DNA of 64,000 nucleotides, taken from Smithella sp. Its GTDB lineage: Bacteria; Desulfobacterota; Syntrophia; Syntrophales; Smithellaceae. The stretch is from contig JAGPFC010000011.1 of assembly GCA_018056685.1 (NCBI GenBank), positions 1 through 64,000 of the forward strand. The letters are read 5' to 3'. The translations under genes and the position numbers were made by a program. This document shows, piece after piece, positions 50,868-53,923 of this stretch. Every line of letters begins with the position of its first letter. Position 1 is the first letter of the stretch. Below the pieces are notes generated by a model. That model did not search any database, was not told the origin of the DNA, and saw nothing but the letters and a program-made list of their open reading frames with translations.

Positions 50868-51438
50868 ATGAAAATAACCAATAGATACCGTAAATTTTCA
50901 TTTCTCACCGACATTCGCGGAATAAAGAACGCCATCGGTGAATTGCACGGATGGGGGCATCCGCAACAACCAACGTTTAATGCCGGTTATCAGCGCTCGC
51001 CGGATGATACTGTCTTTGATGAAGACTGGTTTATCAGCATCATCAAAGAAAAAATTGCCAGCCATCCGGAAAATGCGATGGAATATCCTTTTTATGGGGA
51101 AAAAATTTCTGTCGATCCGCTTTTTCAAAAATATAAAACCATCATCGGAAAGCATCACTTCACAGCGGAAGAAATCATGCGGTGGCAAGCCGAACAACAT
51201 GGTGTTCCCCCTCCGAAGGCTGAAGATGTAAGCGTCGTCTCTTTCATTATGCCGCTGACAAACAAAACAAAGGTTGATAATGCAGCCATGAAAGAGTGGC
51301 CGGCCGAACGTTGGGCGCAGACGCGCCTTTTGGGTGAAATATTCAGCCAGATATTTGTACGTGAATAGTGACACATCTAATGGAAAGGGGTATTTTGGCC
51401 ATAGCGCCGGACTGGGGACCTTCGGAGTGCACGATTTT
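50868..51438 (+). pseudogene. Broken epoxyqueuosine-reductase-like (QueG-like, double 4Fe-4S) gene, 5' half
   Basis: ATG 50868 opens a 166-codon frame ending at TAG 51366-51368 whose end (FIMPLTNKTKVDNAAMKEWPAERWAQTRLLGEIF, key residues L, T, P, S/A, E, R, W) matches the N-terminal part of QueG-like iron-sulfur proteins. The next frame (+1) then reads HSAGLGTFGVHDF at 51400-51438, the family's conserved YAAGLGTFGL element. So about 40 residues between them are deleted with a frameshift, and everything after, including the ferredoxin-type cysteines, is gone. The break coincides with an inverted fragment of another gene. Confidence 0.7.
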
Positions 51439-51540
51439 AAGTATCCGTTCCATTTCCTTCACAATGTCCTGCGCCATATCATTGAACGTTTGCATATAGT
51501 TGATGTGCTGTGTCGATTTGCCAATCGCTCAAAAGATATC
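51436..51540 (-). pseudogene. Inverted C-terminal fragment of a nitronate-monooxygenase-like gene
   Basis: Read on the minus strand from 51525 down to 51436 this encodes IGKSTQHIN...FNDMAQDIVKEMERILK (30 residues). It aligns with the end of the intact NMO-like protein at 52805-53923 (AGEAAQRIN...VNDMVQAMMKEAEDILK), about half the residues identical. A one-base shift upstream gives YLLS in line with the preceding LLA. The fragment abuts the QueG-like remnant at about 51436-51438. Only the tail of the gene remains. Confidence 0.6.
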
Positions 51541-51632
51541 ATTTAGATATCAGTCCACCAATACATGACTACATTTTTTCTTCCAACAGGACATTCCTAA
51601 ATTGGCTGGAACCTTTTAAAGAACGCCTTGAC

Positions 51633-52688
51633 ATGCAAAATCGCATTTTTTATACTTTTGCTGATAAAAGAGAAGATCTGATTATTATCAACACGGAATC
51701 GGAAGCACTGAAACCAGCGATAGGTAATCCTATGCTATATAAAGGCATCACTTGGTTTGCCCTCTATATTCTGTTGGTGGCAGGATTCGCCGCATGGTTC
51801 TTTCTGTATTTTCCAACCGCATCACCCGGAGACATTCTTCCGGAAGCATCCTTTCGGATCAAGAAGGCGCTTATTGGCGGGTTAGTGGTAGCCATCCCGG
51901 CTTGGTTAGTCCTCTGCCAGCTCAGCGGTGTCTGGTTACGCATACAGGAGCGGGAACAGTTGGTCCAGGCAGCCAAAGGTCATTTCCTCGCCGACGGAGA
52001 GCGAGGCGTGTTCTATGGCCAAATCCATCGCGACGGTCCGCCATTGACGGCACCACTCAGTAAGAGAGACTGCCTTCTGTACCGATACGAGGTTACACAT
52101 ACGGAAAGCCGGCCATCAAGATTAAAATCCACCGACGTTTCAAACAATTCGACAATTTATGATGCGGAAGGCTTTGCCCTCACACCGTCAACGATCCATA
52201 CAGCAAGTGGTTCCCTGAAGCTTCTGACGCTGGTCACACCCAAATTCAAGGCCGACCGTATTCCTTCCGACCAGGCTGTTGGAAACTACAAAGAATATTT
52301 GAGTAAAGCTTTATTACAGGGTACCGGCAGCCTGGACATGTACCCGTCTATTAAAAATTCCATCATCAGTGACACCGACGGTGACATCCGCTACGACTTG
52401 GGCACCGGACAACTCGATCCAACGGATCAGTTGAATATACAGGAGCACATCGTTCAAGACGGAGAAACCGTAGCGGTGTTCGGGAAATACTCGGCTGCTG
52501 TGAGTGGCATCGTCTTTGATCCTGTAGCTTACGAAGTGCGTCTCTATAAAGGATCGCTCGAATTGATGAAGAAGGAGCTCATGCGTGGGGTGCGTTGGTA
52601 TGCGTTCGGTGCCATGATTTTATGTCTGGTGACGGCGATTGGAGCCTGGGTATTCTTCAAGTATGGACCGTCGCACATTTGGTCATGA
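51633..52688 (+). CDS. Membrane protein with GIDE-like domain (uncertain)
   Basis: 351 residues from ATG 51633; the frame is open back to 51510 but that part overlaps the pseudogene. Two membrane helices near 35-110, a soluble domain of about 190 residues, and a last helix near 325-345. GPPLTAPLSKRDCLLYRYEV and DGETVAVFGKYSA resemble the GIDE (E3 ubiquitin ligase-type) domain seen in bacterial membrane proteins of unknown role; the resemblance is from short motifs only. No ribosome site is clear. Convergent with the NMO-like gene. Confidence 0.5.
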   Translation: MQNRIFYTFADKREDLIIINTESEALKPAIGNPMLYKGITWFALYILLVAGFAAWFFLYFPTASPGDILPEASFRIKKALIGGLVVAIPAWLVLCQLSGVWLRIQEREQLVQAAKGHFLADGERGVFYGQIHRDGPPLTAPLSKRDCLLYRYEVTHTESRPSRLKSTDVSNNSTIYDAEGFALTPSTIHTASGSLKLLTLVTPKFKADRIPSDQAVGNYKEYLSKALLQGTGSLDMYPSIKNSIISDTDGDIRYDLGTGQLDPTDQLNIQEHIVQDGETVAVFGKYSAAVSGIVFDPVAYEVRLYKGSLELMKKELMRGVRWYAFGAMILCLVTAIGAWVFFKYGPSHIWS

Positions 52689-52804
52689 AAGATCTGTCTT
52701 TATTGATCGATTCATATCGACCTTTCATTACAAATTTAAAGGACGTGACAAAAAAATCGCCACGCCCTTTAATAAATTTTAACTTTTAATAATCTGTAAT
52801 TTCC

Positions 52805-53923
52805 TTATGCAAGGAACTTTGTCTGCACGCCTTTTAGTATGTCCTCCGCTTCTTTCATCATCGCCTGCACCATATCATTGACTTTGGGCATGTCGTTGAT
52901 GCGTTGCGCGGCTTCGCCGGCTGCCAGAAGCGCCTTTTCCTTGTTTCCCTCATAGGCGGCCTGCATGGACTCCATTTCAAACTCAATCAACTTCAGATCA
53001 AGTGTCGCCATATCATCCGGCGTTCCCAGATAACATCCGGGAGATTTCTGTAAAGTGTTTTGTGCATGCTCTTCGCTGCGCGGAGTTTTAATCCAGCGTG
53101 CCGGTCCGACAAAGCCACGCGCCACCAGAGTTCCCCGGTCGCCTGTATCGACAACGCCCTGTCTCCAAATTTGGGGAAAATCACTTTCCTGTGTGGCGAG
53201 GAAACGTGTGCCCATCTGAACGCCGTCAGCACCCATCACCAGCGCCGCAGCCAGAGTCTTGCCGTCACAGAAACCGCCGGCTCCGCATACCAGTGTCTTT
53301 TCATCAGAAACCGCTTCCACTACTGCGGGTAACAGAATCATCGAGTGCACCGGTTCCCAAGATGTGTGAAATCCTCCTTCATGTCCGGATGCAACGATGA
53401 CATCGACGCCCGCTTTCTTGCAGCGGAGCGCGCCCTTGACCGAAGGCACCACATGCATCCAGGTAAATCCCGCCCCCTTAATTTTTTCTTTCCAGGGCAC
53501 CGGATCACCAGCGGAAGTGAAGATAACTTTGAAGTGTTTTTCCATGCCCGGATTGGCCGCTCTTACTTGAATGGCCGTATTGATAATAAGCTCTGCCTGA
53601 AAAAGCAACTCGGCAGATACCATCACATTGATGCCGAACACTCCGTTTGTGTCCTTGGTCAATCGATAGCTTCGATTGAGCAGTTTTTCAATCGCGGTGG
53701 GAATGTCGTCATCCGGATTGGCCTCGGCACTTTTGATCCAGTCATTGTATATAAAAGGCAGAAAATCCTTATTGCAGAGTCCGCTTGTGGAGAACAGGCC
53801 CAAAACACCCGCGTTGGCCGCTGCCACACCCAGGTTGTTGTTACTGAAAGGTCCCATACCGGCCTGAATAATGGGGTATTTGATTCCGGTCATGTCACAC
53901 AGTCTTGACTTAATCATATCCAT
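52805..53923 (-). CDS. Nitronate monooxygenase/FabK-like FMN enzyme
   Basis: 372 residues, TIM-barrel. PIIQAGMGPFSNNNLGVAAANAG start, ASGHEGGFHT near 180 and GADGVQMGTRFLAT are family hallmarks for FMN binding. In strict anaerobes such proteins cluster with acyl-CoA dehydrogenases and Etf and may act as enoyl-type reductases or flavin oxidoreductases; oxygen use is improbable here. Last gene of the acd-etfB-etfA operon, 17 bp after etfA. AAGGAG before ATG 53923. A decayed relative's tail lies at 51436-51540. Confidence 0.85.
   Translation of the reverse strand: MDMIKSRLCDMTGIKYPIIQAGMGPFSNNNLGVAAANAGVLGLFSTSGLCNKDFLPFIYNDWIKSAEANPDDDIPTAIEKLLNRSYRLTKDTNGVFGINVMVSAELLFQAELIINTAIQVRAANPGMEKHFKVIFTSAGDPVPWKEKIKGAGFTWMHVVPSVKGALRCKKAGVDVIVASGHEGGFHTSWEPVHSMILLPAVVEAVSDEKTLVCGAGGFCDGKTLAAALVMGADGVQMGTRFLATQESDFPQIWRQGVVDTGDRGTLVARGFVGPARWIKTPRSEEHAQNTLQKSPGCYLGTPDDMATLDLKLIEFEMESMQAAYEGNKEKALLAAGEAAQRINDMPKVNDMVQAMMKEAEDILKGVQTKFLA

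Follow-up and report, generated by a model that had tools for sequence, protein, structure and literature searches.

A decayed gene junction in Smithella adjoins the relic of an IS1202-group insertion sequence, a group that probably targets sigma-70 promoters

Introduction

How did the head of a QueG-like gene come to abut, on the opposite strand, the tail of a nitronate monooxygenase-like (NMO) gene in a Smithella genome? The window analysed here is the whole stretch of 64,000 nucleotides at positions 1 to 64,000 of contig JAGPFC010000011.1 (GenBank assembly GCA_018056685.1; genome G000 below). A preliminary description of its sequence read the junction as a QueG-like head meeting an inverted NMO tail, the two genes having been fused by an inversion or a deletion. 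We compared the locus with related genomes and followed the insertion sequence (IS) relic that lies beside it. The features of the locus are collected in Table 1.

Table 1. Features at and around the junction, in window coordinates
Feature	Position	Strand	Remarks
QueG-like double-[4Fe-4S] protein gene, 5' part, pseudogene	50868..51365	+	166 codons, open frame
QueG-like gene, continuation past the 1-bp frameshift	51364..51412	+	Placed by nucleotide alignment to G005 and G011
AGLGTFG element of the QueG-like gene in another frame, final stretch before the junction	51406..51438	+	29/33 nt against G005
Junction of QueG-like remnant and NMO tail	51434..51439		Short match TGCACGnnTTT
Decayed 3' end of NMO-like gene	51439..51536	-	Without the last 8 codons and stop
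Right-end relic of IS1202-group element, MITE-like	51562..51612	+	One of two 25-bp repeats lost
Gap from IS end to -35 hexamer, 15 bp	51613..51627	+	Position of the target duplication in intact copies
Sigma-70-type promoter TTGACA-17-TATACT	51628..51656	+	11/12
Acquired ORF, 318 aa	51732..52688	+	No family match; sole other copy 82% identical, in G070
Long hairpin between acquired ORF and intact NMO gene	52736..52772		Resembles a terminator when read on the minus strand
Intact NMO-like gene, syntenic with relatives	52805..53923	-	PF03060, E 2.8e-40; 94% aa identity to G005

Results

Decay of the QueG-like gene

The head of the QueG-like gene shares 81% amino acid identity with an intact orthologue in the same-genus genome G005, and 72, 64, 59 and 62% with four further intact relatives (five related genomes in all). 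The preliminary description had the frame ending, shifting and keeping its AGLGTFG element to about 51438, a course that alignment to G005 and G011 confirms. Relative to G005, the window carries a 30-bp in-frame deletion near 51110, a 1-bp deletion at 51363/51364 that is the frameshift, and an 88-bp deletion at 51406-51412 whose ends fall in two almost identical stretches of 7 bases (GCCGGaC). Together these remove 119 bp, in agreement with the internal loss of about 40 residues first proposed, and the 3' part of the gene with its Fe-S cysteines is also absent from the window. The intact orthologue matches TIGR00276 (QueG) weakly, over its C-terminal half, with 27.8 bits against a curated cut-off of 200, and Fer4_16 (double [4Fe-4S]) weakly, with 18.3 bits against a curated cut-off of 30. 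An assignment to QueG proper was rejected on the TIGR00276 score, and judged by its sequence the orthologue is a relative of QueG, not QueG itself.

Differences in the head are distributed 20/14/56 over the three codon positions and dN/dS against G005 is 0.12. Substitutions in the head still look like those of a selected protein, so its decay appears to be recent; the disabling lesions (frameshift, 88-bp deletion, missing Fe-S part) are all present. The same pattern is what a working truncated protein of 166 residues, still under selection, would leave, and the open frame, the in-frame nature of the 30-bp deletion and a dN/dS of about 0.1 on the window's own branch fit such a protein. We nevertheless consider it decidedly unlikely, given that the head has lost the AGLGTFG region along with the two Fe-S cluster motifs, that the 30-bp deletion took out the conserved PLIGF stretch, that four otherwise invariant sites are changed, some radically (IIGPHHFTP to IIGKHHFTA, for example), and that recent decay accounts for the low dN/dS.

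An NMO relic beside an intact NMO gene

From about 51436 onward, the minus strand had been described as encoding the tail of an NMO-like protein related to the intact gene 1.3 kb away, and both statements hold. Positions 51428-51522 align without gaps to 52824-52918 in the window's own intact NMO gene, with 66 of 95 nucleotides identical (69%). Scored without gaps, this match reaches 37; the best of 1000 dinucleotide shuffles reached 14, and the best of 165 stretches elsewhere in the window 20. When the relic is aligned to G011, the similarity extends to 51536. Identity to the tails of orthologues is 61-69% at the nucleotide level, where one orthologue with a 3-base gap comes out lower in the ungapped count. 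The intact neighbour matches PF03060 (nitronate monooxygenase-like) over its length and the relic aligns to its C-terminal tail, differing from the intact gene in that only about 31 codons are left, with an in-frame stop upstream; the relic contains an in-frame TGA.

Because the syntenic NMO gene stands intact at that short distance, the relic must be a second NMO copy. This requires an NMO duplication, of which no genome examined shows the intermediate. Recent tandem duplication of the window's own gene was rejected, as the relic is about equally far from that gene and from the orthologues. The differences between the relic and the window's intact NMO gene fall 9/8/14 by codon position; on this pattern the relic is probably older than the break in the QueG-like gene.

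The junction and its ancestral arrangement

The intact parents, for which the preliminary description looked to relatives, were found at the syntenic position in two genomes of the same genus. G005 and G011 both have an intact QueG-like gene that comes after the same transporter genes and is convergent with the same NMO gene. Since the two genes already converge there, no inversion is needed to bring their remnants head to tail on opposite strands. The tail is not inverted either: the relic and the intact NMO gene of the window are direct repeats, the relic keeping the orientation of the intact gene. From the earlier proposal of an inversion or deletion, the deletion thus survives and the inversion does not. 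That the two remnants occupy opposite strands is all that speaks for an inversion having fused the genes, and the parents do so in the intact arrangement too; synteny contradicts this origin, which we regard as next to impossible.

An assembly chimera could likewise be proposed, the genome being a draft in 68 contigs with 3.3% estimated contamination. This is very improbable: no intact NMO gene in the genome matches the relic better than 72%, short matches mark the breakpoints, the synteny to either side is unbroken, and the junction lies inside a 97-kb contig. A frame of 60 residues runs across the junction and has no family match, on which ground a protein fusion was rejected; presumably no product is made across the junction.

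For the order of events and the deletion mechanism, we infer the following course. In the ancestor, the QueG-like gene would have converged on the NMO gene, as it still does in G005 and G011. A second NMO copy or fragment would then have been placed between the two and decayed to its tail, the acquired 318-aa gene would have entered the slot as well, and an IS1202-group right end would have come to sit before the promoter of the acquired gene. Later, the QueG-like gene would have lost small pieces. A final deletion between short matches may have taken the stretch from AGLGTFG through the last codons of the NMO scrap. The junction is explained and ordinary, a product of everyday genome decay.

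A slot of gene turnover

Across the genus, the slot between the transporter gene and the NMO gene is variable. Some genomes have the QueG-like gene there; others have a zinc-ribbon protein, unrelated ORFs or a toxin-antitoxin-like pair, and the slot can also be empty. Such variation is ordinary gene turnover. The toxin-antitoxin-like pair was seen in G003 (locus L070), between the NMO and transporter genes, where other genomes hold the QueG-like gene. The acquired ORF of the window has no Pfam or NCBIfam match and is absent from the other same-genus genomes searched. A contig scan for its source came back empty, and the one copy found (G070) belongs to another genus of the family. Its product has hydrophobic segments near both ends, and the 82% identical relative sits at the end of a contig.

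An IS1202-group end relic upstream of the acquired ORF

When the junction DNA was compared with the rest of its genome, two other loci showed short stretches of similarity to 51565-51610. The genome was found to contain three IS end relics (51562-51656 in the window, G000:C6:79527-79632 and G000:C11:277143-277190), each followed after about 15 bp by a TTGACA-17-TATACT promoter. The window relic has no left end and no recognisable target duplication; the C6 copy, which has no transposase, keeps both ends (left end 26/26) and looks like a MITE. No close transposase was found in this genome, only end relics. Full copies of the element are present in G005 (G005:C66) and G018 (G018:C48), both with TGT...ACA ends and a second internal repeat copy; the element copy in the window is partial. 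The G005 transposase matches the NCBIfam ISNCY model NF033594 (E 2e-120, 402 bits). In twelve elements the target duplication measures 15 or 16 bp, at the low edge of the published range of 16-28. These elements share with the IS1202 group (ISNCY; PMC10132070) the TGT...ACA termini, the internal 25-bp repeats, a transposase length of about 420 aa and duplications of 15-16 bp; they differ in having an apparent target, the sequence immediately before a -35 hexamer, entered in a fixed orientation.

A complete IS lies upstream of an enoyl-CoA hydratase-like gene in G005 (L121, G005:C66), and the corresponding gene at G000:C11 has only the right-end relic. Right ends without transposase outnumber left ends without transposase, and right ends may be kept. 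No relatives of the transposase were found in viral contigs. Plasmid matches to it were at most about 40% identical, and among those opened only ISKpn21, a dif-targeting element with a 5-bp duplication, gave clear ends.

Right ends face promoters at a fixed distance

Right ends were gathered from related genomes by the end motif alone, regardless of the sequence that follows (n = 24). At 21 of them, a sigma-70-type promoter matching at least 10 of 12 positions starts 14-16 bp outward. Shuffled flanks yield such a promoter with a frequency of 0.0011 per right end, and the excess has a P of about 1e-53 on independent loci, with two orthologous repeats left out. The three exceptions are an end at which a 13-base tandem copy has moved the promoter outward, one with a weaker promoter in the same place, and one with none. 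Six of seven left ends have no facing promoter. A counterexample is a short IS1202-type element at G045:C4 (L145), with promoters outward of both ends, at 15 bp and, on the left, 17 bp.

Nine full-length elements have a target duplication of 15-16 bp whose last base directly precedes a -35-like hexamer. Five are complete copies from G005, G018 and G054 in which the promoter lies outside the element and the duplication ends exactly at TTGAC[AG]; the G005 duplication copies differ at two bases and the other four are perfect. Perfect duplications also occur in four more elements (L122, L162, L163 and L166), which come from other families and include a second phylum, Nitrospirota; the bases directly after these duplications are TTGACT, TTGACA, TTGACT and TTGCTT, and L166 has a weak promoter match (7/12). 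Two long-duplication elements, from Planctomycetia and Bacteroidota, have no such promoter. By sequence comparison, then, these are IS ends in a fixed orientation and at a fixed distance from predicted promoters, with the duplication ending at the -35 hexamer.

The spacer repeat was at first favoured as a plain regulon operator. Under that explanation, a host regulon would use the AGGACATT repeats as its operators, and the IS would only happen to carry a similar sequence; many copies of AGGACATT have no adjoining transposase, and almost all of them face a promoter. Inverted ends and target duplications displaced it: complete elements with 15-16-bp duplications have these repeats as the terminal inverted repeats at both of their ends, and the MITE-like C6 copy has both ends without a transposase. 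We now consider the operator explanation unlikely. The retained right ends could have been domesticated.

Discussion

We consider it likely that sigma-70 promoters, or perhaps RNA polymerase bound to them, are the target of long-duplication IS1202-group elements, and that these insert in one orientation with a 15-16-bp duplication that ends exactly at the -35 hexamer. The transposase would either read the -35 region itself or dock on the RNA polymerase bound there, and the insertion would leave the core promoter intact. In promoter coordinates the duplication covers roughly -36 to -51, where the alpha subunit of the polymerase makes contact. Taken as a whole, the explanation that the junction is decay in a gene-turnover slot, and that the adjoining IS relic is one of many promoter-targeted IS1202-group insertions, seems to us very likely.

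The IS1202 family was defined in 2023 by authors who found no target for the long-duplication group (PMC10132070). Elements of the short-duplication (ISAjo2) group insert next to dif-like sites, 5 bp away from the XerC site, and docking of the transposase on XerC was proposed for them (PMC10132070). The elements described here resemble the ISAjo2 group (dif/pdif) in family, in oriented insertion and in the fixed distance from a protein-binding site. They differ in having 15-16-bp duplications and promoters in place of 3-5-bp duplications and Xer sites, and membership of the ISAjo2 group was rejected for this reason. MITEAba12 (PMC6382973) is likewise a small non-autonomous element linked with sigma-70 promoters; its promoters are inside the element, whereas here the promoter is host DNA beyond the target duplication. 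The examined passages of PMC10045372 remark on discrete duplication lengths and name no target. A literature search, with subscription papers and ISfinder outside its reach, turned up no description of this group targeting promoters, and as a rule for the group such targeting is probably new.

A relic next to an ordinary junction has thus led to a probable landing rule for a whole group of insertion sequences. Promoter targeting would parallel the XerC-side targeting of the sister group, with RNA polymerase as the possible host protein, and might account for the unusually long duplications. It would show how an element can land upstream of active genes without severing their core promoters, and if it is true, relics such as 51562-51612 persist as fixed sequences upstream of host genes.
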